Shown piece after piece: positions 1 to 31,325 of a stretch of 44,052 bases of DNA. Below the pieces are notes generated by a model. The model had not been told where the DNA came from. It was given only the letters and a program-made list of their open reading frames with translations, and ran no database searches. How positions within the stretch are numbered: position 1 is the first letter of the stretch; each line of letters begins with the position of its first letter. Source of the DNA: Kiritimatiellia bacterium (GTDB taxonomy: Bacteria > Verrucomicrobiota > Kiritimatiellia > CAIQIC01 > Lenti-01); the NCBI GenBank assembly GCA_028681135.1, contig JAQUJC010000023.1:1-44052 (forward strand), given 5' to 3'. A program made the position numbers and the translations under genes.

Positions 1-95
1 CCGTATTCGTCGCGGAAAACGTCGTACCCCTCGGCAAGCAGGCGTTCGGCAAAGGTCTGGAAGTTTTCGATTGGGTTGTCATCGCGCATTGCCAT
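1..95 (-). CDS. partial small protein of the mobile element
   Basis: The first 31 codons of a gene that runs off the left edge. It starts MAMRDDNPIENFQTF and continues as a helical-looking, acidic segment. The ATG at 95 is chosen because GGAGG lies 7 bases upstream. The gene begins 2 bases after the stop of the 64-residue gene at 98-292, so the two are probably co-transcribed. I do not recognise the family, and the visible part is too short to assign a role. From its position it is accessory cargo of the integrated element. Confidence 0.5.
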   Translation of the reverse strand, partial: MAMRDDNPIENFQTFAERLLAEGYDVFRDEY

Positions 96-97
96 GA

Positions 98-292
98 TCA
101 ATCCTCCCCATCACAGCGCGGGCGGCGCTTCCATCTGTAAAAATGGCCCCACCAATAATCCCACGGATGGACCCGTGGGTCATGCGCCCATGCGCTGGCG
201 GGGGTGGTGTCCCCTGTCCCGGCGTGTCCCTCGGGACGGGTTGGGACGCCGTAGGCGGGGGGGGTAGGCATTCCATGCACACGGTCATTCAT
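98..292 (-). CDS. small hypothetical protein, 64 residues
   Basis: A short gene starting MNDRVHGMPTPPAYG and ending in an aromatic, basic stretch (PWDYWWGHFYRWKRRP). I recognise no family. The start is supported by a strong ribosome site: GGGGAGG lies 7 bases before the ATG. The stop lies 2 bases before the start of the next gene (95), which fits translational coupling. Three tandem copies of a 9-base unit sit just upstream of the ribosome site, with a palindrome holding a TATAAT box further up. The gene therefore seems to have its own controlled promoter. The same frame stays open upstream to about 409, but that part is built from the repeats and lacks a ribosome site. Confidence 0.5.
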   Translation of the reverse strand: MNDRVHGMPTPPAYGVPTRPEGHAGTGDTTPASAWAHDPRVHPWDYWWGHFYRWKRRPRCDGED

Positions 293-306
293 GGCCCGCC
301 CTCCCC

Positions 307-333
307 GGTTGTGCCGGTTGTGCCGGTTGTGCC
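307..333. repeat. three tandem 9-base units (GGTTGTGCC)
   Basis: GGTTGTGCC occurs three times head to tail at 307-315, 316-324 and 325-333. It occurs once more, inverted, at 399-407, and an eight-of-nine match starts at 374. Read on the minus strand, the tandem units lie directly upstream of the ribosome site of the 98-292 gene. Nine-base spacing puts successive units on nearly the same face of the helix. Repressor sites or small replication iterons are both possible. Confidence 0.7.
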
Positions 334-373
334 GTGGCGCATCCGGCCCGGCCCCGTTTGGGGTTCGGCGGTT

Positions 374-407
374 GGTTGTGCGCCGCCTTATTATAGGCGG
401 CACAACC
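374..407 (-). promoter_or_regulatory. imperfect palindrome around a -10-like box
   Basis: The arms GGTTGTGCGCCGCCT and AGGCGGCACAACC are inverted, with two extra bases in the left arm. On the minus strand the centre reads TATAAT (395 down to 390). No convincing -35 stands 16-18 bases upstream. The arms contain the same 9-base unit as the tandem repeats at 307-333. The arrangement suggests an operator over a promoter for the 98-292 gene. It could also act as a transcription stop for the RepA-like gene that ends at 440. Confidence 0.4.
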
Positions 408-439
408 ATCCGACCGACCGGCCTTGCGTGTTTCCGCCT

Positions 440-1915
440 TCATACTGCAAGCCTCGGATTCATGTACGATTGAATGACGGCGGGAAGCCCGTATTTAACC
501 GCGCCGTTTTTGGCCCCGGCCCTCGGGGTGTGTATGATCTCGCCGCGCCGCACCAGTCCATCCAGACAGGCACGGGCAAGATTTCGGGAAGCGCCGCCCT
601 CTTGAATCGTGCAAAGCAGTTCGTTGCGGCCCATCGGTTCCCGTGCCGCATCCAGCGCAACCGCCTCGAATGATTCCGCCGTGCGTTTCGAGTCCCCTTG
701 TGTGGCCCGTTTTCGGTCCCATGAAGTGAAGGGAAGCGGCATCAAGTCCGCGTCAAGGTGGAATCTGTCATCCTCCCAGCGGATGCAAAAGTCATCCAGT
801 GGCGGGAAGTTCCGGCACATGACGGAAACCACGCTTGCGCCCTCGGGGTCCTGTTTCTGTGGGGTCAGGGTCAACCGCGCATCTACATCCCGACCGGCCC
901 AGCTTGAACCGCCGCCCCTGTCTGCAATCGCCCGGTCCCCGGCGTCGCCTTTTGGGTCATGGTGAACGGCTATAACGGCGGGACCGCTTTCGGCCACCCG
1001 GTCGAATAGGTCAAGAATCCCGGCGATTCCCTCCCCGGCGTTTTCGGCCTCTCCCGGCAAGTGGAGCTTGTAGCGCGGGTCTACGATCACCAGTTCGGCC
1101 CGGTCCCGTCGCGCAATCTCTACCAGACGCGCCCGGACGGTTGCGCCCCGGCCTCGGGCATTAACGACAAACAGCCTGCCACGCAATGCGGCGCTGTCTA
1201 TGCCGTGCGCCCGGCAAGCTCGCCGGATTCGACGGTGAATCCACTTGTCCCGCAATTCCAGATTGACGAAAACAACGCGGCGGGGGTTGGGGATATGAAG
1301 CCCCAGCCAATCGCGGCCCGTTGCAACATGGACGGCGATTTCGATTGCCGCAAAGCTCTTGCGGCGCTTGCTCCCCCCGATCAACTCCACCTTATCGCCA
1401 AGCTCAAAAACCCCGTCAATGATTGGATCATGCGCGGTTGGCTCTGCTTCCAGATAGTCAGCCGCATCCGTGGAAGGTATTTGCTCCCCGCCACCCTCCA
1501 CGGCCTCACCAGCGGCTTTGAGAGCATCGGCCACGGTATCGAGCGCATCCCCCCGGTCAAGGGCTTCAGCGGCCATCCTCGCCGCCGAGTGAAGGCCCCG
1601 GCGACGTTCCGCCGTGCGGACCTGTTCGGCGTAGTAGGCCGCATGCTCTGAAGTAGGGCATGACTCTACCATTTCAGACAACGCCAGCAGGTTCTCCCCG
1701 GCGTCACCGTCCATCTGTTCGGCGACGGTCAAGGGGTCAATGATGCCGGGTTTTCTGGATCGTAGAAGTTCCATCGCGCACCATGCGGAGATGCAGACTT
1801 CATCCGTGAAGCTCCCCGACGTGATACCGGCCTGTTGGCAGACCGGGAAGGCCCGGTCATGGGCTTGGAGTAGAGCGCCCAAAAGTGCCCGCTCGGCTGG
1901 TGTGGAATCTTTCAC
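440..1915 (-). CDS. RepA-like ATPase with DnaB N-terminal-type domain
   Basis: A 491-residue protein. Residues 5-100 resemble the N-terminal helical domain of DnaB helicases (ERALLGALLQ near the start, YYAEQVR near 94-100). Residues 165-350 form a RecA-like ATPase of the RepA/AAA_25 type, with a Walker A-like GGSKRRKS (180-187), a Walker B-like ELVIVDP (about 274-280) and a conserved HHDPKGD (about 318). The C-terminal 100 residues look like a winged-helix region. Such proteins act in replication start of plasmids and phage satellites, as hexameric ATPases. The start is GTG at 1915, overlapping the stop of the preceding gene by 4 bases. It ends the five-gene run 3273-440, so it is probably made from a shared transcript. 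Helicase loader and primase-helicase are alternatives. Confidence 0.7.
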   Translation of the reverse strand: MKDSTPAERALLGALLQAHDRAFPVCQQAGITSGSFTDEVCISAWCAMELLRSRKPGIIDPLTVAEQMDGDAGENLLALSEMVESCPTSEHAAYYAEQVRTAERRRGLHSAARMAAEALDRGDALDTVADALKAAGEAVEGGGEQIPSTDAADYLEAEPTAHDPIIDGVFELGDKVELIGGSKRRKSFAAIEIAVHVATGRDWLGLHIPNPRRVVFVNLELRDKWIHRRIRRACRAHGIDSAALRGRLFVVNARGRGATVRARLVEIARRDRAELVIVDPRYKLHLPGEAENAGEGIAGILDLFDRVAESGPAVIAVHHDPKGDAGDRAIADRGGGSSWAGRDVDARLTLTPQKQDPEGASVVSVMCRNFPPLDDFCIRWEDDRFHLDADLMPLPFTSWDRKRATQGDSKRTAESFEAVALDAAREPMGRNELLCTIQEGGASRNLARACLDGLVRRGEIIHTPRAGAKNGAVKYGLPAVIQSYMNPRLAV

Positions 1916-2112
1916 GATTGCACCCCATCGCGCAGGATGTTTTTAAGCGCCTTGTCCACAAGGTCGCCGATGCGAACAGGCCGCCACGGTTCGGCATACG
2001 GGCTTGCGCCCTTGGAGCGTGTGGGGTAGGGTCTGCGTTGTGAGACAGTTCCGTTTCCGTCGCCGCCCCTGCCTGCAAGCCGGGCGGCTTTTTCTTCGAT
2101 GGACTGCTTCAT
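1912..2112 (-). CDS. small hypothetical protein, 66 residues
   Basis: A 66-residue basic protein (MKQSIEEKAARLAGRGG... ending in RIGDLVDKALKNILRDGVQS). The C-terminal 20 residues could form an amphipathic helix. It is locked into the operon by 4-base overlaps on both sides: its ATG overlaps the stop of the ParB-like gene (2109-2112) and its stop overlaps the GTG of the ATPase gene. I recognise no family. Its position between a ParB-like protein and a RepA-like ATPase suggests a replication or partition accessory role, by inference only. Confidence 0.6.
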   Translation of the reverse strand: MKQSIEEKAARLAGRGGDGNGTVSQRRPYPTRSKGASPYAEPWRPVRIGDLVDKALKNILRDGVQS

Positions 2113-2831
2113 CGGGAAGCCCTCCGCAATTCCTTTTTACAATAGGCAATCACCCTGTTCAGGGCTTCGGTTCTGTACTTATCTTTCGGCTTAATGCCAG
2201 ACAGGAGATAAACCGCCTTCTCTGCGATGGATTTCGCCGTCAGCTTGAACCGATCATCATCGCCTGGATGAGCGTGTGACTCGTTGCCTGGTTCATCCGC
2301 TTCATCGTCTGCACCATCTCCATCAAGTACCGGATTGAGGGTTGCGCTTGTGATACGGGTTGCCGGGTACTGTTTCCCATCTGCACCCGTTCGGGATTTC
2401 AGTTGGTCAACTTGTCCAACTGTTTCTAATGCCTTCCGCTCATCGCCCACCGTGACGTGACTGCATCCGATTTGCTTGGCAATTTCGCGGTTGCTCCTGT
2501 TGGGAAACTCGCGGACGGCAAGGGAGATTGCCTGCCTCACGTCCGCTCGGCTCATTCGCAGACCATGCGCCTGGTTCGCGCCCAGCGCATACCACAGGGC
2601 ATCTGATCGAGTACCTGGGCGGATGTTCGCCGGTATCTCCGTGAATTGATTTCGAGTCGCGGCCATGACACGGTGGTATCCATCCGCCAGGTGGTACTCT
2701 GTCCCATCGGTGAAGACTTCCACAGGTGGGAAGACGACGCCATCGGTCATGGCTTCGGCGTACTGCTCTACAACCTCGGGGTTGATAGACTCGCGCACCT
2801 GGGCATCCAGTTTGATCTTGGAGATGTACAT
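2109..2831 (-). CDS. ParB/Spo0J-like DNA-binding protein of the element
   Basis: A 240-residue protein with a ParB N-terminal (ParB/Srx fold) domain in residues 1-95, including the typical LADGYHRVMAA segment. An HTH follows around residues 100-140 (SNREIAKQIGCSHVTVGDERK), then an acidic linker and a basic C-terminus. Family members bind DNA and, in true ParB, CTP. Mobile-element versions often act as regulators. The same frame opens at a TTG two codons earlier (2837), but GGAGG abuts that TTG directly and stands 6 bases from the ATG at 2831, so I take 2831. No ParA partner is visible nearby, which argues for regulation or replication control over classical partition. Confidence 0.75.
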   Translation of the reverse strand: MYISKIKLDAQVRESINPEVVEQYAEAMTDGVVFPPVEVFTDGTEYHLADGYHRVMAATRNQFTEIPANIRPGTRSDALWYALGANQAHGLRMSRADVRQAISLAVREFPNRSNREIAKQIGCSHVTVGDERKALETVGQVDQLKSRTGADGKQYPATRITSATLNPVLDGDGADDEADEPGNESHAHPGDDDRFKLTAKSIAEKAVYLLSGIKPKDKYRTEALNRVIAYCKKELRRASR

Positions 2832-2833
2832 GC

Positions 2834-3097
2834 TCAACCTCCGTTCTTCAGACGTTGGACTTCGGACCAGCGCCAGCGGATTGACCGCTTGCTACGGCGT
2901 ATGGCTTGAATCTTCCCGGCCCGCTCGTACCTGAACAGGGTCAGGGGGCAGCATTCCAATTCCGTGGCCGCTGTTTTTGTGGGGACCAGCTTTTCAGCGG
3001 CGGGGGCATCGGTTGCGAACACCTGCCGACGCTCTTCTTCCGTTGCGTTCGCGGCTCGCAGGGCAAGCTCGATTGCGCTTCGCAGTTCGGCTCTCAT
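2834..3097 (-). CDS. helix-turn-helix DNA-binding protein
   Basis: An 87-residue protein. Its second half (VPTKTAATELECCPLTLFRYERAGKIQAIRRSKRSIRWRW) matches the pattern of MerR/excisionase-type winged helices: a recognition helix, the ERAGKI turn, and a strand that reads the site. Such proteins in integrated elements act as excisionases or repressors. The ATG at 3097 has GGAGG 9 bases upstream and overlaps the preceding stop by 4 bases. It stops 2 bases before the ParB-like start. The N-terminal 35 residues look helical and have no clear match. Confidence 0.65.
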   Translation of the reverse strand: MRAELRSAIELALRAANATEEERRQVFATDAPAAEKLVPTKTAATELECCPLTLFRYERAGKIQAIRRSKRSIRWRWSEVQRLKNGG

Positions 3098-3273
3098 TTC
3101 CCAGCCCTCCGACGTAAGGACGCAATGACCGCGCCCGGATCGTATAAGACCAGCTTGCGCGATAGGCGCAAAACAGGGACCTTCATGCGCCGTAGGGTTC
3201 TGGTTGATACTCCGATTTTTTCCGCCATTTGTGGCTGGTGAAGCAGGACGGGCTCGTTTTTTTCTTCTGTCAT
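3094..3273 (-). CDS. small HTH (excisionase-like) protein, 59 residues
   Basis: A 59-residue protein (MTEEKNEPVLLHQPQMAEK...) with a compact HTH: QMAEKIGVSTRTLRRM, then VPVLRLSRKLVLYDPGAVIASL. This is the layout of AlpA/Xis-type DNA-binding proteins. I use the ATG at 3273, which follows a purine-rich GAGAGAG about 9 bases upstream. The frame stays open upstream to 3366, but that part lacks a ribosome site. It heads the five-gene operon 3273-440. A GGCACAA sequence like the 9-base unit at 307-407 lies just upstream, so the same regulator may control it. Confidence 0.6.
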   Translation of the reverse strand: MTEEKNEPVLLHQPQMAEKIGVSTRTLRRMKVPVLRLSRKLVLYDPGAVIASLRRRAGK

Positions 3274-3432
3274 GGCTCGGCTCTCTCTATTGTGCCGCGC
3301 ACCAAAAAAATCAGCGCACAGCGGTTTCGTTTTCCGCCATGCGCCGATCAACCGAGTTGTCGCCATGTCCTGACCTGTCGCCGTTGAAGCCCGAAAGCCT
3401 GCCAGCCGGTCAGCTTCTAAAATGTCACTTCA

Positions 3433-3678
3433 TCATCTGGATGTGATCGTGGCCCTCATGCTTCTGATCTCTGCCGATCCACGGCCCACAAACTTGACTT
3501 GATCGCCGTGAATCCGCGCCGCCATGTCACGGTGCAGCCGCATGAGCAAATCCGCATCCTGCTTGTTCTCCCGGCAAGCTCGCCGGAATGCCGTCTCACA
3601 GGACTTTTCACACGCGGCGAAACCCTTTTTCAGCCGCTCCGCCGTGTTCTGTTTTTCGCATTGGATGCACTTGAACAT
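3433..3678 (-). CDS. small Cys-containing protein, possible zinc knuckle
   Basis: An 81-residue protein (MFKCIQCEKQN...) with a CxxC near the start and a CEKSC pair about 20 residues later, which could bind a metal ion. The middle is strongly helical and charged (ETAFRRACRENKQDADLLMRLHRDM). I recognise no family. The start is uncertain: an in-frame ATG at 3744 would give 103 residues, and neither has a clear ribosome site. A promoter-like pair just upstream would start the RNA almost at the 3678 ATG, which favours the short form and a near-leaderless message. It lies between the integrase and the regulatory operon. Confidence 0.5.
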   Translation of the reverse strand: MFKCIQCEKQNTAERLKKGFAACEKSCETAFRRACRENKQDADLLMRLHRDMAARIHGDQVKFVGRGSAEIRSMRATITSR

Positions 3679-3679
3679 G

Positions 3680-3713
3680 ACCGCACTATATGCGGTGGGA
3701 ATCGGCCCCGCAA
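3680..3713 (-). promoter_or_regulatory. possible promoter with palindromic operator
   Basis: Read on the minus strand, TTGCGG (3713-3708) is followed after 17 bases by TATAGT (3690-3685). The second box sits inside a 6-base inverted repeat, ACCGCA...TGCGGT (3680-3696). The predicted RNA start is at about the ATG of the Cys-containing gene. The -35 match is weak (TTG only), so this is tentative. Confidence 0.35.
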
Positions 3714-3778
3714 GACAGTTGGGGACATTCTGCGTCTCTGGCATTAGATGGGGATTCGATGCGGACAGCCGGTGTTTT

Positions 3779-5053
3779 TTACGCTGTGGGTATCGCCAGC
3801 AGTTCCGCTCGTAGCGCCTTAAGGCTCTTTGCATTCTTTACGACCTCGACCGCCCATCCGGGCAGGGGTTCCCGTTCCGGCTCCACAATCTCGGCTTCAA
3901 CCAGGACAGGGATTGAATCGGCGGCCTGTAGTACCATGCGGTCGGTTGGGTGCAGATAGCGCATGGTCATCTGTGCGTTGCCATGCCCCACCAGCTTGGT
4001 CATGGTGGCCTGTGGCGTACCAGCGTCGGCGTTCAAGGAAACATAGGTATGCCGGAAGGAATGAAAGCCCTTCAAGACAACAGCACGTTTCCCGGTCCCC
4101 TGCCCCGTCCCTGGTTTCACCGTCTGGATGCCGCACGCTTCAAGATGCGCTTGGATTCGATTCGACACGTCCGCCGATTTGCCTCCTGTGTATTCGGCGG
4201 CCAGTCCGGGCATGACGTAGGGTCCCCGCCTTGGAAGGGTGGAGAGATGGGCGGCCAGTTCAACTGGGATACCGATCTTGATCTTTGCCTTTTCTCCAAG
4301 GTGGGCGGTTTTGTTCGGGATCAACTCGATGATACGACGCATCACGTCGGTACTCCCCCACCGTAGAGAGCAAGCATCCGCCAGGCGCAAGCCCGTTCCG
4401 GCTCCGACGAAAAACAGCGTTTTCAATTCGCCTTCAGCGTTTGCGATAATCCGGCGCATCTCTTCGGCGGTGAAAGTCTCGCGGGAATGCTGGATCGCCT
4501 TTTGCGTTTTGAGGTTCTGGAAAGGGTTTTCCGCCACGGCCCCGATGCCACCCATGCAACGGAAAAACATTCGGAGGAAAATCTTGTATTGGTTCACCCT
4601 GCCGACGGCGTATCCCCTGGCCTTCAAGTGTTCGATGAACCTCTTTGCGTGGATCTCCTTCACTTGCGCCAGCGTCTTGACCGTGGGCGCGTCTTCCCGC
4701 AACCATGAGGCAAAGGCGTTCCATTGACCGATGTACTGCTTCAGGGTGGCCGGTCCAGGGTTCGGCCTGGTCTCGGTGTCCATGTCCTCAAACGTCTTCC
4801 AGGCGGCGGCAATCGCTACAGGTCCCCCGGTGGCCGCCTCGTTCCTGGCCGCTTTGATTCGACGTGCAAGGACTGCCAGGCGGTCAGCTTCACTCCCGGC
4901 CCGTTGCGGTTGAAGTATCTCATCGGCCTTACGCCTGGCCTCGGCTTCGGTCTTCGTTCCCAGCGTTCGGCGGAATCGCTTCCCGTCAACGTCATACTGC
5001 AACCAATAGGTTCCGCCGCGCCGGTAAAGGTGTCCTGTTCCTGCCGTCTTCAT
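3779..5053 (-). CDS. int: tyrosine recombinase / integrase
   Basis: A 424-residue site-specific recombinase that would insert and excise the element. The N-terminal region (residues 1-60) has the beta-stranded DUF4102/arm-binding look (GHLYRRGGTYWLQYDVDGKRF). A SAM-like core-binding domain follows around residues 90-190. The catalytic domain has the Arg in GTGLRLADA, the box HSFRHT, the His in VGHGN and the nucleophile Tyr in TMRYLHP, so it looks intact. I use the ATG at 5053 because AGGAG lies 8 bases upstream. The frame opens 15 codons earlier at a TTG. It stands directly beside the split tRNA gene at 5174-5217, the usual position for the integrase of a tRNA-targeting element. Confidence 0.92.
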   Translation of the reverse strand: MKTAGTGHLYRRGGTYWLQYDVDGKRFRRTLGTKTEAEARRKADEILQPQRAGSEADRLAVLARRIKAARNEAATGGPVAIAAAWKTFEDMDTETRPNPGPATLKQYIGQWNAFASWLREDAPTVKTLAQVKEIHAKRFIEHLKARGYAVGRVNQYKIFLRMFFRCMGGIGAVAENPFQNLKTQKAIQHSRETFTAEEMRRIIANAEGELKTLFFVGAGTGLRLADACSLRWGSTDVMRRIIELIPNKTAHLGEKAKIKIGIPVELAAHLSTLPRRGPYVMPGLAAEYTGGKSADVSNRIQAHLEACGIQTVKPGTGQGTGKRAVVLKGFHSFRHTYVSLNADAGTPQATMTKLVGHGNAQMTMRYLHPTDRMVLQAADSIPVLVEAEIVEPEREPLPGWAVEVVKNAKSLKALRAELLAIPTA

Positions 5054-5102
5054 GGTGTGCGCTCCTGTTCGCTTGTGTGTTTTACTGACCGTCTTCAATC
5101 GT

Positions 5103-5126
5103 CATAAAGCACACATAAAGCGCACA
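5103..5126. repeat. direct repeats beside the integrase (possible arm sites)
   Basis: CATAAAGCACA (5103-5113) is followed at once by CATAAAGCGCACA (5114-5126). The two copies are one helical turn apart. They lie between the integrase start and the attachment junction, where integrase arm-type sites are normally found. The function is inferred from position only. Confidence 0.45.
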
Positions 5127-5173
5127 GTCAACAGCAGATTTCGCGCAATATAAGGGGTTTTTGCAAATATCAG

Positions 5174-5217
5174 GGAGATTATGAGTCTCCTGCTCTGACC
5201 AACTGAGCTAAGGGCCC
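5174..5217 (-). tRNA. 5' half of a tRNA with anticodon CAU, cut at the element junction
   Basis: On the minus strand, 5217-5174 reads as acceptor 5' strand GGGCCCT, TA, D-arm GCTC...GAGC, then an anticodon stem GGAGA, loop CTCATAA and stem TCTCC. U33 and the CAU anticodon are in place. It looks like tRNA-Ile2 (CAU, lysidine type) or elongator tRNA-Met. The gene ends with the anticodon stem: no variable loop, T-arm or acceptor 3' strand follows, and the sequence continues into the integrase region. This is the host/element boundary, with the crossover in or near the anticodon stem-loop. The missing 3' half should be at the other end of the element, outside the window. Confidence 0.8.
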
Positions 5218-5312
5218 TTTTTCTGTGCGTATAGTGCCGTTCTATCGCCGCAAACTCAAGTCTTTCCAGCAGGGCCCGGGCGGCTATTCTGCCCAGGGGG
5301 GCGATTCCGCTC

Positions 5313-5340
5313 TTGACGACAGGTGCCAAACTCCTATGAT
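5313..5340 (+). promoter_or_regulatory. promoter of the rplS operon
   Basis: TTGACG (5313-5318) and TATGAT (5335-5340) are separated by 16 bases. Each matches the sigma-70 consensus at five of six positions. RNA would start near 5347, about 28 bases before the rplS ATG. Confidence 0.7.
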
Positions 5341-5374
5341 GCCCGCCTGTTTATTAACAGAGATAGGTATGCCC

Positions 5375-5722
5375 ATGAAAACTGCCCTTTTAGAAAAAGT
5401 TGAACAGAGCCAGCTCAAAGAAACGGCTCCGGAATTTGATGTCGGTGACTCGGTGCGCGTGCACGTAAAGATCAAGGAAGGCGAAAAAGAGCGCGTCCAG
5501 GTCTATGCCGGCACGGTCATTGCGCGTGATGGGGGGGGGGCCAACGAAACCTTCACCGTGCGACGCATTTCCTATGGTGAAGGCGTTGAGCGCGTTTTCC
5601 CCGTCCATTCCCCCTACGTGGTCAAGGTCGATGTGGACCGCCGCGGCAAAACACGCCGGGCTAAGCTCTACTATCTGCGCACCCGCACCAGCAAGCAAAG
5701 CCGCCTGAAAGAGCGCGTCTGA
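5375..5722 (+). CDS. rplS: 50S ribosomal protein L19
   Basis: A 115-residue protein, the normal length for bL19, which sits at the 30S-50S interface of the ribosome. Family features are clear: [28 protein letters not shown], then [28 protein letters not shown], and a basic C-terminus. The conserved glycines are encoded by a run of ten G (5531-5540). The ATG at 5375 has AGG 7 bases upstream. An ATG two codons earlier (5369) is too close to that site. It heads rplS-rnhB-yraN, an order common in bacteria. The usual upstream genes (rpsP, rimM, trmD) are absent, and a tRNA remnant stands there in the opposite direction. Confidence 0.96.
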
Positions 5723-5740
5723 TTCGGAGGGTCTTCCGCC

Positions 5741-6376
5741 TTGCTCCAGTTCGAGCAGGAGGCCTGGGCGCAGGGCGCACGGCGACTGAGCGGCGTGGAC
5801 GAGGCCGGTCGCGGCCCGCTGGCCGGACCCGTTGTGGCGGCCGCGGTGGTCGTTGCACGCACTTTTCTTGAAACCGAAGCCACTCGCTCCCTTCAGAGGT
5901 TAACCGATTCCAAGCAACTCTCGGCAAAACGCCGGGAGTTGTTTTATGATCTGCTGATGTCCAGCCCCGACGTTGAAGTGGGCATCGGCAGCGCGTCGGT
6001 TGCAGAAATCGACGCGCTGAATATCCTGCGCGCCACCCACCTGGCCATGCGCCGCGCCATCGAGCATCTGACACCCCTCCCCGACCTGGCCCTGGTGGAT
6101 GGGCGGCCGGTGCAGGGGCTGCCCGTGCCGCATCGCGCCATTGTCGGGGGCGATGGGGTCAGCCTGTCGATTGCCGCCGCGAGTGTACTGGCCAAGGTAA
6201 CCCGCGACCGCTTGCTGGTCGAACTGGCCGCGCAGTACCCCGCCTATGGATTCGACCGCCACAAGGGCTATGGCACCCGCGCTCACCTCGAAGCTCTGCA
6301 GCGCCACGGCCCCTGCCCCGTTCATCGGCGATCGTTTGCACCGGTCGCTCAACGTGTCCTGGAGTTTGACTCATGA
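5741..6376 (+). CDS. rnhB: ribonuclease HII
   Basis: A 211-residue enzyme that cuts the RNA strand of RNA-DNA hybrids and removes single ribonucleotides from DNA. The N-terminal [20 protein letters not shown] carries the catalytic Asp-Glu pair. The [11 protein letters not shown] motif and [11 protein letters not shown] near the C-terminus are typical. The likely start is a TTG at 5741 with GGAGG 10 bases upstream, 18 bases after the rplS stop. The stop overlaps the yraN ATG by 4 bases, so translation is probably coupled. Confidence 0.95.
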
Positions 6377-6813
6377 ACTGGCCCTGGCCCCTAACGCTGT
6401 TGCGCAAATCCGCCAAAAGGCAGCCAGCCTCGCAACGGACAGGGGCGTGGGGGGAAGCGCTTGCGGCGCGGCTGCTGCGGCGCAAGGGCTACCGCATTCT
6501 GGGCCGCAATGTTCGCTTCGGTTCGCGCTGCGAGCTGGACCTGGTGGCGCGGTCGCCCGCACCTGAAACCCTCGTATTTGTAGAAGTCAAAACCCGCCGC
6601 AGCGACACCTTTGGCCGCCCCATGGTGGCCGTGGACCGCGCCAAGCGCCGCGCCCTTGGGCGCGCCGCCCACCGCTATCTGCGCCATCTCAAAGTGCGGC
6701 CGTCACACATCCGCTTCGATGTCGTGGAAGTCATCGGCCTGCCGACAGGCGACCCGCCCGTCATCCGTCACATTGAAAATGCATTTTCACCCGGGCCAGG
6801 TTATCGTGTTTAG
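6373..6813 (+). CDS. yraN: UPF0102 (YraN) family protein
   Basis: A 146-residue protein with the endonuclease-like fold of the UPF0102 family. The core [23 protein letters not shown], the acidic residue in CELDLVA, and the FVEVKTRRS motif match the restriction-enzyme-like active site (E, D, ExK). The cellular role is not settled in this family. Its place behind rnhB is typical. Translation is coupled to rnhB through the ATGA overlap. Confidence 0.92.
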
Positions 6814-7193
6814 GAGCCATTCCCCACATCCCGTAACCGCTGAACAACGTCCTATCCAGGTCGGGACGGGATCCCTCCACAGCGGGCAGACTGCCCCGGC
6901 TCCATTCCAATCGTTTTGGGAGCCCCCGACGGCCTGTGCGCCTGTGCGCGGAACCTCGTCGGGGGATGAGAGGGACTGCGATAGTAGTGGACATGAATGA
7001 GCAGAGGGTTCTGAAAAAGGAGTCAGCCGTTAGAAGCCAGAGAGCCAAAATGAATAGCTACGGATTTCGCGGATGATTTTTTCGACCAACAACCCACGAT
7101 CAGTTACAGTGAGATGGATGCAGATATTCCACGGAGTCCATCCTGAATCCTGAATTCCAGCAACATGACCGTTTACAAAAGGTTGGTAGCCTC
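6814..7193. other. 380-base spacer with a strong hairpin
   Basis: No supported gene. The main structure is a perfect 9-base inverted repeat, CCCCCGACG (6923-6931) and CGTCGGGGG (6957-6965), with a 25-base loop that itself repeats CCTGTGCG. It lies 110 bases after yraN and lacks a T-run, so a simple terminator role is uncertain. The rest is lower in GC and I see nothing else in it. Confidence 0.5.
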
Positions 7194-8339
7194 TTGAAAC
7201 CCATCCGAACCATTTCCATCCTCATGGCCCTGGCCGTTGCCCCGCTGCCACACGCCAGGGCGATTTTCGACGAATGGGAACTCGACTATGACATGCTGGC
7301 GGAGTCCGGTCAGAAGATATTCGAGCAACTGGCCCCGGCATCCGTGCAGGAATCCTTTCGATTCTACACCGCCGACGAAATCAAATCCACGTTTGGCCCC
7401 ATCCAACAGGCGCTGGACGGCAGCAGTCTCGAGGCGCTGGCCGATCTCCAGCCGCGCGCGCGCCAAACCCTAGATTCCTTGCGTGCCAATCCCGAAACTC
7501 AGGCCACTGCCGACTGGCTGGAAGCCCGCATGGATTTTTTTGAAATGGCCGCCGAAGTCCAGCAAGCCATTCCGGCACCCCGGGTGCCCACGCCCCCCCC
7601 GGGGCCCGCACCCGGACCACCGCTGATTCCTCATCCCACGCCTTTGCGGCCCGCGCTGATCCCCCATCCACAAGAGCCCGATACGTCAACCCTGCCGCCG
7701 CATCCAACCTTGCCCCAACCGACGCTGATTCCGCACCCAACCGAGCCGACTGCCCCCCCGCCCCCCCCGCCCCCCCCGCCCACGACCCGCCCCGGCGTCG
7801 CGCCCGCCCCGCTCGACAAGGCGCGCAACCGCTACGTCGAAAGTCGCCAGGCCTGGGTGCGTAAGCTCGCCAAGCGCCCAGCTCCTGCCCGCGCCGCCGC
7901 CCTGCTGCCGGACCTTAAGCGTATCTTCCGCGAGCAGAGCATCCCACCAGAGCTGGTGTGGCAGGCCGAGGCGGAGTCCACCTTCAACCCTGCCGCCCGC
8001 AGCCCCGTTGGGGCCGTCGGCCTCTATCAGTTCATGCCCGCCACCGCCCGCGAGTATGGCCTGAGCCTCTCGCCAGTGGATGAGCGTCTCGACGCCATGA
8101 AAAATGCCCGCGCCGCGGCCCGTTACCTGAAATATCTGCACGGACGCTTCGGCAACTGGCCACTCGCGCTCGCCGCCTATAACTGCGGACAGGGCCGAGT
8201 GTCCAAAGCCTTAGCGGCCGCCGGCGGCACAACCTTCGACGACATCCACGACCGGCTCCCCGCCGAAACCCGCATGTATGTCCCCAAAATCGCCGCCCTG
8301 CTGCACATTCGCGAAAAAACCGACCTCGATCGCCTGTAA
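7194..8339 (+). CDS. secreted lytic transglycosylase (SLT domain)
   Basis: A 381-residue protein that would cleave peptidoglycan glycan strands in the periplasm. It has an N-terminal signal peptide (residues 1-23, MKPIRTISILMALAVAP...), a helical region (25-125), a proline-rich linker (126-205) with three LIPHP repeats and a nine-proline run, and a C-terminal SLT domain (about 243-375). The catalytic Glu is E261 in AEAESTFNP, followed by GAVGLYQFMPATA and ALAAYNCGQGRV, all family hallmarks. The start is TTG at 7194, which gives a basic signal-peptide N-terminus. The nearest upstream ATG is in another frame and soon stops. The linker may let the enzyme reach across the wall layer. Confidence 0.9.
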   Translation: MKPIRTISILMALAVAPLPHARAIFDEWELDYDMLAESGQKIFEQLAPASVQESFRFYTADEIKSTFGPIQQALDGSSLEALADLQPRARQTLDSLRANPETQATADWLEARMDFFEMAAEVQQAIPAPRVPTPPPGPAPGPPLIPHPTPLRPALIPHPQEPDTSTLPPHPTLPQPTLIPHPTEPTAPPPPPPPPPTTRPGVAPAPLDKARNRYVESRQAWVRKLAKRPAPARAAALLPDLKRIFREQSIPPELVWQAEAESTFNPAARSPVGAVGLYQFMPATAREYGLSLSPVDERLDAMKNARAAARYLKYLHGRFGNWPLALAAYNCGQGRVSKALAAAGGTTFDDIHDRLPAETRMYVPKIAALLHIREKTDLDRL

Positions 8340-26491: not shown

Positions 26492-26812
26492 TTAGGGGCT
26501 CGCCGCCAAACCGGGACAGCCGACCACCTGCCAGCCGTGAGGAAAGTCGCGGCATTGGCGCGGACGGACAGAATAGATCTGGCAGCGTCCATCGGGATCG
26601 AGGAACTCGCAAGCGCCATCACCGGCCTCCCGCAAGGTCAACTGTGCCCGGTTGCGGGCGAGAATGGTATGGCGCTCAATGAAGGCCTCTGGCGTCATCC
26701 CCAGAAATGCCGCGATCTGCTCGATATCGGCCGCCTGCACCAGGACCGATCCCGGCCAGCGGCAGCAGGCACCGCAGCGTTGGCATTCAAAGGACTCCGT
26801 CACCTTCGACAT
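26492..26812 (-). CDS. YkgJ-family cysteine cluster protein
   Basis: A 106-residue protein with the eight-cysteine pattern of the YkgJ/UPF0153 family: CQRCGACC at the N-terminus (C10, C13, C16, C17), then CEF, GRCQIYSVRPRQCRDFP and a last Cys in VGCPGL. Such proteins are thought to bind metal or an iron-sulfur cluster. Their role is unknown. The ATG at 26812 is chosen (MSKVTESFECQRCGACC). A TTG at 26866 would overlap the upstream gene. It is the last gene of the channel set (31325-26492), 19 bases after the ExbD-like gene, and may be co-transcribed. Confidence 0.75.
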   Translation of the reverse strand: MSKVTESFECQRCGACCRWPGSVLVQAADIEQIAAFLGMTPEAFIERHTILARNRAQLTLREAGDGACEFLDPDGRCQIYSVRPRQCRDFPHGWQVVGCPGLAASP

Positions 26813-26831
26813 GGCACCCGGCACACGCGGC

Positions 26832-27461
26832 TTATTGCGAATAGATCCGGTCGCCGCCGGGACCAATCATGATGGGATTTTTCTCGTCTTGCAGTTCCAC
26901 CGAGACATTAAAGCCCCTCAACCAGGCCAAGGCCCGCGCCTGCTGAAAAATTTTATAGCTATCGGGGCGAACAAAGAAACAGATGAACTGGGTTTGAGGG
27001 TCCAGTTCCGCCAGGCGCGAGCCATACCACATGGACTCTGTTTCATCCATGAACCGCGTAAGTTGATAGCCTTCGGCCTCTTCAATGGGAAACAGCACAT
27101 AGCGCCCCATCAGCGCAAACGTATAATCCAAGCGCTGGCCTTCGATTTCCAGTTGGGTTTGAGAGGCCGTTTTCAGGAACTCGGTTTCGCTATCCTCCAC
27201 CTGTTCACGAATCTGTTCGGTTTTGGCATCGACGGCATTCTTGATGACATCCAAGGAGATATGAAACAGGCCATGGTTGCGGCATTCGAAGAAAGCGGGG
27301 CTTTTATCGTCGCCGGTGTGTTCCATGGGAGTCGACACCAGCACCGTGATCTGGGAGGCATCAATGCCGGTCAGGATGATAATCAGGATCAGAATTCCCA
27401 GCATACACGTCAGGATATCCGTGAACGAACTTAAATCCATGGCGGGACCCTTGGCAGCCAT
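26832..27461 (-). CDS. ExbD/TolR-like membrane protein A (with TM aspartate)
   Basis: A 209-residue protein with one N-terminal membrane segment (about 16-33) and a periplasmic part. The segment begins LSSFTDILTCMLGILILIIIL. D15 stands where ExbD, TolR and MotB carry the proton-binding Asp. The periplasmic end has FFVRPDSYKIFQQARALAWL (about 162-181), which also occurs in modified form in the next protein, so the two are paralogues. A helical stretch fills 70-130. It begins 2 bases after the stop of protein B. With the TolQ/ExbB-like channel at 29949 it would form an ion-driven unit. The ExbD match is weak outside the membrane segment. Confidence 0.6.
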   Translation of the reverse strand: MAAKGPAMDLSSFTDILTCMLGILILIIILTGIDASQITVLVSTPMEHTGDDKSPAFFECRNHGLFHISLDVIKNAVDAKTEQIREQVEDSETEFLKTASQTQLEIEGQRLDYTFALMGRYVLFPIEEAEGYQLTRFMDETESMWYGSRLAELDPQTQFICFFVRPDSYKIFQQARALAWLRGFNVSVELQDEKNPIMIGPGGDRIYSQ

Positions 27462-27463
27462 GG

Positions 27464-27955
27464 CTAGATATCCTGCCTTTCAACCACAATCTCGCGGTCG
27501 GCCTCCCAGGGCTCAAACCCCACGCCGATATCCCGATCACGAATGATCTGCCGCAGTTGCCGCTGGAACACGGCACTGCCCGGTCGCAGCAGCAAGACGA
27601 TATAGCGCCGCGCCTTGACTTTTTCCACCTCACTCAGGAATTTTTCAAATTCATTCCCTTCAAACATCAGATCCCGGGCCAGGATTTCTTTGCCCTCCTG
27701 GACCAGAATCAGGCGGTCCGCCTCCACATCAATATAGACGGGATCCTGGCGCAGATTTTTGAATTTAGGCGGCACAAAGGCGGTCTCGTCTTCATCTGCT
27801 TCATACACCGCACCGGTGACCACCGCACCAATCTTGATGTTCTCCGGGTTGCTGATGATGGTCACCACATTGCTGATCAGCAAAATCATCAACACACCGA
27901 TCAACATTAGAACGATGTTCTGGAAGCCCGATGTATCGCAGTCGATTTCTTTCAT
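27464..27955 (-). CDS. ExbD/TolR-like membrane protein B (Asn in place of Asp)
   Basis: A 163-residue protein with one N-terminal membrane segment (about 12-33, GFQNIVLMLIGVLMILLIS). Aligned with protein A, N13 stands at the place of the proton-binding D15. The periplasmic end LLLRPGSAVFQRQLRQIIRD (about 121-140) and the following GVGFEPW match the same region of protein A. The ATG overlaps the stop of the propeller gene by 4 bases. It may pair with protein A as an unequal stator dimer, or be a structural subunit that does not carry protons. I recognise it only as ExbD-like. Confidence 0.55.
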   Translation of the reverse strand: MKEIDCDTSGFQNIVLMLIGVLMILLISNVVTIISNPENIKIGAVVTGAVYEADEDETAFVPPKFKNLRQDPVYIDVEADRLILVQEGKEILARDLMFEGNEFEKFLSEVEKVKARRYIVLLLRPGSAVFQRQLRQIIRDRDIGVGFEPWEADREIVVERQDI

Positions 27956-29922
27956 GGGGCAGCCTCCCCGGTCGGTTCCGCGGTCTCCTCTGCGGCAACC
28001 GGACGCTCATCGGTGGGCGCCGAGATGACCGGATCGACGTCACTGGCCGCATCCAGACTCATTTCGACCCGCTTCTTCTCGACAATTTCACGCATGTCGC
28101 CCGCCGCCCCGGTCAGGGTGGTATCGCCCACATCGCCAAAGGCGACAGTCATCTGGGCGGGGAACTGTCCCAAGCGCAGCCAGCCGACTGAGCGATTGAC
28201 CCCCCCCCCGGCCCCAAACCCAGCGACCAGCAGATTGCTGACTTGCTCACGTGTCTGGGTGCCATCCATGCCCTCAATGACGGCCTCATCCATGAAAGAA
28301 GCCTCATAGGTGATATTGCCGCTATCGGAGGTAGGCGATTCGACCACCAGCTTAGCTGTTTGCTCCCGGGGCCCCTGAAAGAGGGTGAGATAGTAATCGC
28401 CGTAGATGCCGGCACCCAGGAAGGAAAGGTTCACATACATTCCGCCATCTGCCTCGTCCAGTCCGCACACGACAATCGGAATGTGCAGCCCCCCCTTTGC
28501 AGACGCCACTCGGGACACATTGGTACCCGAGTAGCGGTATACGCCCACATCACTTTGAAACAGGGGCTTGGTCTGCTCCACCTTACCGCTCTTGCGGCGA
28601 GCCGAGAAAAAGCTCATGCTCGGCGTGACCGCCACATCGGTCATCACCACTTTACTGGGAAACAACAGGAAGAACTCGACTTCTTCGATGGGGTCTTCCT
28701 CGGCACCGGCGATCTCGACGGCCGCGCGAATTCGTCCGGCCACGATCGGCATTTTGCCCGCGATATCGCTGAGATTAAACTGAACGGCATGGGTGGAGTC
28801 ATCCGGGAGCAAGCCCGAGGCCGCGCTTTGCAATTGCTCAAAAAAGTTACCCAGAAAAGCCGGTGCTTCGGCGGATGTGCCCATCATACTATCCACGGCG
28901 CGGACCATCTGGCGCATGCCCACTTCGTTAAAGCGCACCGCCGGCTGGGGGGTGCATTCCACCACCTTGCCGGCCTCCGGGTCGGTGACAAAATATCGCA
29001 CCTTTTCCCGATCGATGGCGATATCGCCGATGGACTGGAACCCCTCGGCCAGGGTCCTCTGCTGAAAGTTAAACGGGTCCAGCCGTTTGAGCACCGCTTG
29101 GCCAGGTGCATTGCGCTGACCAATGATGAAGGCCCCATCGGGATAGACCGATACCGCCTGCAATTCAGCGCGGCCGGTGGTATCCGGCACGCCGCCGAGC
29201 ATGATATGGCGGTGCAGTTCCCACCAGGACAGCTTGCCCCGATTGCGGTCGCCCAGCACCATGACATCCTCACGCGCGGAAAGCGCGAAGGGACCAAAAT
29301 CGGCAAACGGGCCAAAATCGATGACCCACCAGTCCCCATTGGGCTCGCGCACGAGGGCCGAGCCAAACTTCATGAAATCAGACCCGATCTCATCGGCGCC
29401 GGCAATGAACACGCGATCGAGGGTATCCACCTGCAGATCACGCCATTGAAATTCCTGATCCAACCACGGCACCGGCACCACGATCGCCTGAGTATACTGG
29501 CCCTGATCGTCTGGGCGAAATTCGAGAAGGCGGCCATTGGGAATCTGTTCCGCCACATACAGCGTCCCATTGGTGGAAAATGAGATGGGACCGGGTTTCA
29601 CCAAGGTTGGCGACATCCAGGTATCCAGCGGCATGGCATCGGAGATGGCCCAGCGCGGTAAATTCGTGGAGACGCTCCAGCCGGGTGCCAAGACCGGTTC
29701 GGCGGTGCCATTGCGCAGGACGAGAATTCGGCCGCTACCCAATTCTGACACATAGAGGTCTTGGGTCTGGGGATGAATGGCCACGCCATGAGGCTGCTGC
29801 AAGCCATCCAGCAGGGTGCGCATCGCCAATGCCGGCTCCTGCTGCGCCTGGGTGGACGCTACAGCGCTCAGCGCGACCCCCAGCGCCACCAAGAAGATCC
29901 GTGCTCGGAACTGATTCCGCAT
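27952..29922 (-). CDS. secreted protein with NHL/SMP-like repeats (probable beta-propeller)
   Basis: A 656-residue protein with a signal peptide (residues 1-27, MRNQFRARIFLVALGVALSA...). The first 350 residues carry repeated NHL/SMP-30-like blades: LQQPHGVAIHPQTQDLYVSELGSGRILVL, ISFSTNGTLYVAEQIPNGRLLEF, LDRVFIAGADEIG, GDIAIDREKVRYFVTDPEAGKVVE. The remainder is beta-rich and unmatched, ending in an acidic, proline-rich tail. A run of ten C (28200-28209) encodes glycines near the end. The start at 29922 follows GGGAGGGAG. It lies 26 bases after the channel gene and overlaps protein B by 4 bases, which points to a shared periplasmic machine. The ligand is unknown. Confidence 0.65.
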   Translation of the reverse strand: MRNQFRARIFLVALGVALSAVASTQAQQEPALAMRTLLDGLQQPHGVAIHPQTQDLYVSELGSGRILVLRNGTAEPVLAPGWSVSTNLPRWAISDAMPLDTWMSPTLVKPGPISFSTNGTLYVAEQIPNGRLLEFRPDDQGQYTQAIVVPVPWLDQEFQWRDLQVDTLDRVFIAGADEIGSDFMKFGSALVREPNGDWWVIDFGPFADFGPFALSAREDVMVLGDRNRGKLSWWELHRHIMLGGVPDTTGRAELQAVSVYPDGAFIIGQRNAPGQAVLKRLDPFNFQQRTLAEGFQSIGDIAIDREKVRYFVTDPEAGKVVECTPQPAVRFNEVGMRQMVRAVDSMMGTSAEAPAFLGNFFEQLQSAASGLLPDDSTHAVQFNLSDIAGKMPIVAGRIRAAVEIAGAEEDPIEEVEFFLLFPSKVVMTDVAVTPSMSFFSARRKSGKVEQTKPLFQSDVGVYRYSGTNVSRVASAKGGLHIPIVVCGLDEADGGMYVNLSFLGAGIYGDYYLTLFQGPREQTAKLVVESPTSDSGNITYEASFMDEAVIEGMDGTQTREQVSNLLVAGFGAGGGVNRSVGWLRLGQFPAQMTVAFGDVGDTTLTGAAGDMREIVEKKRVEMSLDAASDVDPVISAPTDERPVAAEETAEPTGEAAP

Positions 29923-29948
29923 GGCCGGTGTCTCCCTCCCCCCCTGTT

Positions 29949-31325
29949 TCACGCAGTGACTTCTTCGTGCAGGGTAATCACACGCGGTTTGCTCAAGCGG
30001 CGGCAAAATTCATCGGTGGTCGCCAGATGTTCACGAAGCTGCGCAAAGGTTTTCTGAAACTCTTCGGCGCCGGCAATACCGGCCACGGCGCGTTCGAGCG
30101 CCTGTTCGACTTGCAGCAGTTCCTTGATCTGCGCCCCGAGGTCCGCGATGGTATCCACCTGCTGAGCCACGTCGCCCGCCGCCTGCGCCGCCTTGGCCAG
30201 GCTGCCGCCCAGCGCGGTTTGGATGCCATCGGCACTGCGGGCGTACTGGTTGGCCAGCTCCGCCGCCTTCAGATGCGCGCTCTCCAAGGCCGCCGCCAAC
30301 GCCTGGACTTCATCGTCCGTGGCCTGCTTGCGGGCATCCACATATTTTTCTGTAAAGGATTCAAACTGTTTCTCCACCACGGTGCCCGCCTTTTCGATGG
30401 ACTCGGTGAAGACCTCTTCGTAGCGGTCCGGATCGGGGATGTAACGCCGGAAGGCGGCCTCGATTGAATCCTCGAGGTTTTCGATCACCACGGCCTGCTG
30501 TTCGGCCGAGGGCAGACGCGACACAAAATGTTCGTCAATGTAGACATCGATTTCCCCCAGCAGTGTCGCTTCACGCCGCATGACCGAGCTGAGGGGAAAC
30601 TGGATAATCGTCACCAGCATCAGAGCCAGGAACGTAGTATCGAAGGCAACCCCCAGACCAATGGTGACGTCTGCGATGGCGCCCTTAATGGCAGCCAAGT
30701 CGGCGGCGCCCGTCAAGAAGTCACCGAACCCGCCGACAGCGGAACTCAGACCTTGCACCGTTCCGATAAAGCCCAGAATCGGGATGGCCCACATCATCGT
30801 GCGCGCCAGGGTATAGGTTAGGTCCGACATTGCATTGTCGCGATTGGCTTCGGACCCCATCCAGCTCCCGACTCGGCCCACATCCTTGGTGGCCAGCCAC
30901 AGCGCCAGGCCGCGATCCAGACGTCCCAACAAAATGCTGCTTTCATCCAGCCCCTCGTCATGGATACGCTTGCGCAGTAATTGCAGCTCTTCCTCGTTGT
31001 CCATGTTCAGCGATGACAGATGGGCGGTATCATCATAAATGTGCTGAATCTGATAGCGAATAATCCGGGACTTCAGGATCATGAACAGGACCACCACGAG
31101 AAAACACAGCAACTCGAGCCATTGCACCGGACCACGATGATTGATCAGACCATTCATATAGGCGATCAACCCCCCGATACCGGCCTTGGTTAAATAATGC
31201 AGCCCAACAGAAACGACCGCGGTCAAAACGATGGCCACACCTAATTGAATCCAAACGTTTACATCGGTATTGGCCCGTTGCTGTCCAAGCTGTTCACCTT
31301 GCTCCGCTATCTCGTCTTTCGCCAT
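29949..31325 (-). CDS. MotA/TolQ/ExbB proton-channel family protein with long coiled tail
   Basis: A 458-residue inner-membrane protein. Membrane segments lie at about 25-46, 68-86, 177-197 and 222-247. The third contains PILGFIGTVQGLSSAVGGF and the fourth follows AIADVTIGLGVAFDTTFLAL, the hallmark motifs of the TolQ/ExbB channel. Residues 251-458 are a long, charged, helical cytoplasmic tail (AALESAHLKAAELANQYARS, ALGGSLAKAAQAAGDVAQQV), longer than in TolQ or ExbB. I use the ATG at 31325 with AGG 7 bases upstream. It heads the set and is followed by the propeller and two ExbD-like genes. ZorA of Zorya defence also has a long tail, but its partners differ. Confidence 0.82.
   Translation of the reverse strand: MAKDEIAEQGEQLGQQRANTDVNVWIQLGVAIVLTAVVSVGLHYLTKAGIGGLIAYMNGLINHRGPVQWLELLCFLVVVLFMILKSRIIRYQIQHIYDDTAHLSSLNMDNEEELQLLRKRIHDEGLDESSILLGRLDRGLALWLATKDVGRVGSWMGSEANRDNAMSDLTYTLARTMMWAIPILGFIGTVQGLSSAVGGFGDFLTGAADLAAIKGAIADVTIGLGVAFDTTFLALMLVTIIQFPLSSVMRREATLLGEIDVYIDEHFVSRLPSAEQQAVVIENLEDSIEAAFRRYIPDPDRYEEVFTESIEKAGTVVEKQFESFTEKYVDARKQATDDEVQALAAALESAHLKAAELANQYARSADGIQTALGGSLAKAAQAAGDVAQQVDTIADLGAQIKELLQVEQALERAVAGIAGAEEFQKTFAQLREHLATTDEFCRRLSKPRVITLHEEVTA

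Follow-up and report, generated by a model that had tools for sequence, protein, structure and literature searches.

We describe a conserved three-gene unit that encodes a TolQ/ExbB-type channel (CHAN) and two paralogous ExbD-like proteins (EXD1 and EXD2), only one of which generally retains the transmembrane (TM) aspartate of this protein class. We aligned the TM segments of all identified cassettes, in which a single column corresponds to the ExbD Asp. This residue is present in 93/93 cassettes in which EXD2 was read, while the same column of EXD1 is occupied by another residue in 95 of 100. The Asp asymmetry is the most unusual feature of the cassette and had no place in the original prediction for this DNA. 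We consider it probable that CHAN, EXD1, and EXD2 form an inner-membrane motor of the 5:2 class with a one-Asp heterodimeric axle, where the stoichiometry, the heterodimer, the rotation, and the function in the envelope are all putative.

Gene content and distribution of the cassette

The window, which refers here to the entire analyzed stretch of 44,052 nucleotides, is contig 33 of a 3.05-Mb Kiritimatiellia genome, for which Kiritimatiellae/Lentisphaerae MAGs are the closest named relatives. Five minus-strand open reading frames (ORFs) run from position 31325 to 26492 in the order CHAN, NHL, EXD1, EXD2, and a YkgJ-type gene (Table 1). The successive genes are separated by 26 bases, a 4-base overlap, 2 bases, and 19 bases, in agreement with the tight packing originally reported (overlapping or 2 to 26 bases apart). 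Orthologs of all five genes occur in identical order in close relatives, and the five ORFs are thus not products of chance. No relative was present in the viral contigs searched.

Table 1. Positions of the cassette genes and their principal features in the window
Feature	Position	Strand	Description
CHAN	29949..31325	-	TolQ/ExbB-type channel, 458 aa, cytoplasmic helical tail of ~200 residues; PF01618, orthologs in five phyla, pore motifs
CHAN TM3 pore motif PILGFIGTVQGL	30747..30782	-	T189 and G192 invariant; canonical ExbB of this genome has PMLGLLGTVQGM at the aligned position
CHAN TM4 motif VTIGLGVAFDTTFLAL	30621..30668	-	T221, A227, and T231 invariant; aligned to A-x-TT of canonical ExbB
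CHAN motif after TM4, VVIENLEDSIEAAFRRYIPDPDRYEEVF	30408..30491	-	Near-invariant in Kiritimatiellota
CHAN C-terminal motif KPRVITLHEE	29961..29990	-	KPRxITLxE ends the tails from Kiritimatiellota to Cyanobacteria; also in the unlinked tail-sharing partner
NHL	27952..29922	-	Secreted, six-bladed propeller and C-terminal beta-rich domain, 656 aa; PF01436, PDB propellers (2.7e-33), model, Foldseek
NHL propeller domain, residues 30-327	28942..29835	-	Mostly high-confidence strands; Pizza6 TM-score 0.82
EXD1	27464..27955	-	ExbD-like single-TM protein without TM Asp, 163 aa; paralog of EXD2
EXD1 Asn13 codon	27917..27919	-	Aligned to the Asp of EXD2
EXD2	26832..27461	-	ExbD-like single-TM protein, invariant TM Asp, 209 aa; model pLDDT 88
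EXD2 Asp15 codon	27417..27419	-	Predicted ion carrier; no change on tree
EXD2 periplasmic domain, residues 54-199	26865..27302	-	AlphaFold beta-beta-alpha-(insert)-beta-alpha-beta; elsewhere in fusions with GH53 or with EXD1 domains
YkgJ-type CxxCxxCC protein	about 26492..26812	-	Optional last gene; PF03692, 51.7 bits

Judged by its sequence, CHAN is a MotA/TolQ/ExbB protein. Against PF01618, the window protein scores 17.7 bits when scanned alone and 22.9 bits in its whole frame, where the curated cutoff is 22.9, and a cyanobacterial and a planctomycete ortholog exceed this cutoff with 30.2 and 29.0 bits, respectively. Alignment to the ordinary ExbB proteins of the same genome places the canonical motifs PxLGxxGTVxG and A-x-TT in the last two TM segments of CHAN. 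The Pfam matches and pore motifs together uphold the predicted TolQ/ExbB-type channel, whose cytoplasmic tail spans about 200 residues. The N terminus of CHAN in planctomycete and deltaproteobacterial loci (L141 and L149) carries a CxxC...CxxC segment resembling a zinc ribbon. Profile searches of the PDB with CHAN, EXD1, or EXD2 returned coiled-coil or chance matches alone.

EXD1 and EXD2 each comprise one TM segment and a periplasmic domain, and their direct profile comparison (hhalign E = 1e-24) confirms that the two single-TM proteins are paralogs. Their kinship to ExbD/TolR is plausible, although weak by sequence: neither window protein matches PF02472, the best EXD homolog reaches 21.1 bits (E 3.5e-4) where the cutoff is 25.4, and hhalign against canonical ExbD is weak, also with wider alignments. 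In the AlphaFold model of EXD2, the elements succeed one another as in ExbD, apart from an insert, which suggests an ExbD fold for the small proteins. Foldseek with this model found nothing significant (TolR ranked 14th, prob 0.28). The suggestion of an ExbD fold draws on this order of elements and on the weak PF02472 matches of homologs.

Maps of the relatives and 80 named loci reveal CHAN-EXD1-EXD2 as a conserved three-gene unit. This core is found in Kiritimatiellota, the group of the window, as well as in Cyanobacteria (about 14 of 146 genomes), Planctomycetes, Verrucomicrobia, and Deltaproteobacteria. Several families of Kiritimatiellota have a cassette that continues into genes that we named, from reading their sequences, fabZ, lpxA, gspD (GspD-like secretin), gspE (GspE-like ATPase), and gspF (GspF-like protein). 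The clearest case is locus L109, where the cassette, fabZ, lpxA, and the gsp genes overlap or nearly touch, and this linkage points to a role in the envelope or in protein secretion. In three Nostocales genomes (L114, L116, and L120, about 1-7834), type III-B CRISPR genes for Cmr3 (PF09700, 2.7e-61) and a RAMP protein, along with two more ORFs resembling CRISPR-associated sensors, precede the cassette by ~130 bases.

The transmembrane aspartate and the EXD1-EXD2 pair

The residues found at the Asp column of EXD1 (n = 100) are Ser (60), Asn (14), Cys (10), Ala (7), Pro (3), Thr (1), and Asp (5), and the window protein, with Asn13, belongs to the non-Asp majority. No cassette lacks Asp in both EXD1 and EXD2. 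As a control, we examined canonical tandem ExbD pairs of related genomes, which carry Asp in both members in 9/9 cases. The difference between the EXD1/EXD2 cassettes and these pairs has a Fisher p of about 9e-10, a value not corrected for relatedness. One point against a single-site axle is a further acidic residue of EXD1, located roughly six positions ahead of the site where the TM helix begins, which might contribute. Elsewhere in the genome of the window (C81; L005:983-1465), the TM Asp of an ExbD encoded beside an ExbB is seemingly replaced by Asn (LLNVV), and a second ExbD was not seen nearby.

Mapped on a phylogenetic tree of CHAN, the EXD1 site requires 12 or more changes, whereas none is needed at the EXD2 site. 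The long branches of this tree leave its deep rooting uncertain. The five cassettes with Asp in both proteins occupy four places within the asymmetric clade and thus look like regains, in which EXD1 would have recovered Asp about four times; they also mean that the asymmetry is not absolute. In one of these cases, from a Pleurocapsales cyanobacterium (L140:9385-9909), the TM segment of EXD1 resembles that of EXD2 (INLDSFLDILANTMG), perhaps through gene conversion. A sister family without the tail forms a clade with 100% support and has Asp in both proteins in six pairs, while the second protein of its locus L069 is without Asp.

Several observations tie EXD1 to EXD2. The TM segment of EXD1 otherwise keeps the pattern of EXD2 (PFLSILACTIGTL versus SFLDILTNTVGVL), which fits packing in the same pore, and the two genes are paired and adjacent across cassettes. 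Five genomes (L339, L340, L341, L343, and L344) encode single polypeptides that combine an EXD1 and an EXD2 periplasmic domain in tandem, lack the motor TM segment, and, in at least some cases, bear a signal peptide. These fusions suggest that the domains function together as a pair. The EXD2 domain is also joined to a secreted GH53 galactanase in two genomes (L337:4711-6342 and L338:3966-5594; PF07745, 2e-40 and 3e-47). The kept TM pattern, the gene pairing, and the tandem fusions make a heterodimeric EXD1:EXD2 axle the best inference.

Alternatively, an EXD2 homodimer could constitute a normal two-Asp axle within five CHAN subunits, with EXD1 as a separate regulator or a membrane-anchored periplasmic adaptor. 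The invariant Asp of EXD2 and the many residues tolerated at the EXD1 site, as if it lay outside the ion path, fit such an arrangement. However, we regard it as unlikely in view of the same TM pattern, adjacency, and domain fusions, and of the repeated return of Asp to EXD1 within the asymmetric clade.

In the heterodimeric motor that we favor, five CHAN subunits would surround an axle of one EXD1 and one EXD2, and the axle would offer one ion site (Asp15 of EXD2) rather than two. The turnstile model of 5:2 motors has two equivalent Asp sites that alternate, with ten ions and 36-degree subcycles per turn (PMC9389320). A single site would instead set a turnstile period of 72 degrees and pass five ions per turn. 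We give roughly even chances to the broader proposal that the cassette represents an ancient and widespread class of 5:2 motors, whose heterodimeric axle carries a single ion-carrying Asp and turns in five 72-degree steps for five ions.

Candidate partners in the cytoplasm and the envelope

To identify genes that accompany the motor, we compared 149 genomes of the class that are 90% complete or more, comprising 26 with a window-type cassette and 123 without. One genome (G011) was counted as motor bearing because its EXD2 lies beside an NHL gene truncated where the contig stops. A tail-sharing partner, which has a CHAN-like tail and TM segments without the pore motifs, is present in 25/26 motor genomes versus 0/123 of the others. 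Members of the NHL family (E up to 1e-15) occur in 24/26 versus 0/123, including genomes with NHL outside the cassette. These counts are inflated by shared ancestry, yet the pattern spans about eight families. In the genome of the window, the tail-sharing partner (C86:20779-21219; L065) is unlinked to the cassette and contains the KPRxITLxE motif. It lies just upstream of a gene resembling rsmI, which encodes a 16S rRNA methyltransferase.

The long tail of CHAN may act in the cytoplasm together with the pore-less tail protein encoded elsewhere. The tail and the conserved end that it shares with this protein could also be read as parts of a gated ion channel that serves as an envelope sensor and not as a force generator, in which the EXD domains would monitor the periplasm and the tail would relay signals to the cytoplasm; with one Asp gone, leak or gating may be more fitting than rotation. 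The strict retention of the pore motifs and the Asp argues against a sensor, as does the lack of a signaling domain in a Pfam scan of the window proteins, and we judge this reading improbable. The pore motifs, the invariant Asp of EXD2, and the conserved cassette support the original proposal of an ion-driven envelope machine of the ExbB/TolQ class. Such a machine would act at the outer membrane or in secretion, and the periplasmic parts of EXD1 and EXD2 would hand on the motion or the force to partners in the envelope.

In Kiritimatiellota, these partners may include the secreted six-bladed propeller and other secreted proteins with EXD domains. The expectation that the NHL-repeat protein is secreted and probably propeller shaped proved sound: a PDB profile search, AlphaFold, and Foldseek agree on six four-stranded blades, while the C-terminal half is modeled with low confidence. 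NHL lies between CHAN and EXD1 in 20/41 Kiritimatiellota cassettes, leaving out the sister-type locus L069. In Cyanobacteria, Planctomycetes, Verrucomicrobia, and Deltaproteobacteria, the cassette loci carry neither an NHL gene nor a YkgJ gene. Proximity of the propeller to the ExbD-like genes in other genomes thus holds for about half of the Kiritimatiellota cassettes and fails in the other phyla. We accordingly rejected the propeller as a core component, given its absence from the cassettes of other phyla. The YkgJ protein, whose identity is secured by its Pfam match, is encoded on the cassette strand in 18/42 Kiritimatiellota loci. Two further NHL paralogs stand in tandem ~3 kb upstream of the cassette in two loci (L092:1451-5210 and L093:1488-5178).

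The original prediction had the motor drive the secreted propeller as its effector, a model that is compatible with the one-Asp motor. The confirmed fold, the position of NHL in the Kiritimatiellota cassettes, and the restriction of the family to motor genomes of the class speak for this model. Its absence from cassette loci of the four other phyla and its non-adjacency in half of the Kiritimatiellota loci count against it, and we hold the model to be possible but rather doubtful.

Comparison with known systems

The claim that no described system has this gene order stands for the searchable literature, while the combination of one channel with two ExbD-like proteins is known from AglRQS (PMC9389320). 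Neither an Asp-less ExbD partner nor such a cassette came up in a literature search that covered few subscription journals and no preprints. A 2022 review terms the 10-fold symmetry of 5:2 motors almost certainly universal (PMC9389320), and a one-site axle, if true, would break the symmetry that all such motors are assumed to have. Here, in a motor family conserved in five bacterial groups, evolution has seemingly removed one Asp site and restored it about four times. Whether one site suffices, and how it affects step size and torque, becomes directly testable, and the Asp difference provides a way to distinguish the two axle chains in a structure. The propeller, the tail protein, and the secreted EXD-domain proteins are now named as candidate partners of an unstudied envelope machine.

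The gliding motor AglRQS of Myxococcus xanthus resembles the cassette in that one TolQ-like channel and two TolR/MotB-like proteins are encoded together (PMC9389320, PMC3169522). However, AglQ and AglS are both described as having the conserved TM Asp, unlike nearly all EXD1 proteins, AglR is a short channel (245 aa versus 458 aa for CHAN), and the system has no NHL protein. It is stated to be unknown whether the two TolR-like proteins AglQ and AglS heterodimerize (PMC9389320).

The ZorAB motor of Zorya is a 5:2 motor with a long cytoplasmic tail (PMC11890865). CHAN likewise has a long tail and shows a weak similarity to ZorA profiles. A Zorya-type antiphage role for the cassette would also suit its patchy distribution in Cyanobacteria and the Cmr genes upstream in three Nostocales. 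In contrast, Zorya has a single type of ZorB, which bears a peptidoglycan-binding domain, and a ZorE effector, with neither a second, Asp-less subunit nor a propeller (PMC11890865). Pfam and PADLOC scans of the cassette yielded weak ZorA-like scores, no PADLOC match for the other cassette genes, no ZorC, ZorD, or ZorE, and no OmpA domain, and the cassette is stably linked to envelope genes in Kiritimatiellota. We therefore rejected the defense reading, which we consider highly improbable.

No TonB or TolA/TolB/Pal domain occurs in the cassette, and none was recognized among its conserved neighbors. The lack of TonB, TolA, and an OmpA domain sets the cassette apart from Tol-Pal, ExbBD-TonB, and Zorya, as originally noted. 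Canonical ExbB-ExbD1-ExbD2 and TolQR systems share the channel motifs and a single-TM Asp partner with the cassette, and tandem ExbD genes are encoded in these genomes as well. However, the canonical tandem ExbDs carry Asp in both members, come without a long tail, and score well against PF02472, where EXD1 and EXD2 hardly score. Residues 30-327 of NHL adopt the fold of NHL/SMP30-type six-bladed propellers, such as the PknD sensor, lactonases, and the Pizza designs. The window protein differs from these known propellers in that it has an extra C-terminal beta-rich domain, is secreted, and belongs to a family confined within the class to genomes that encode the motor.
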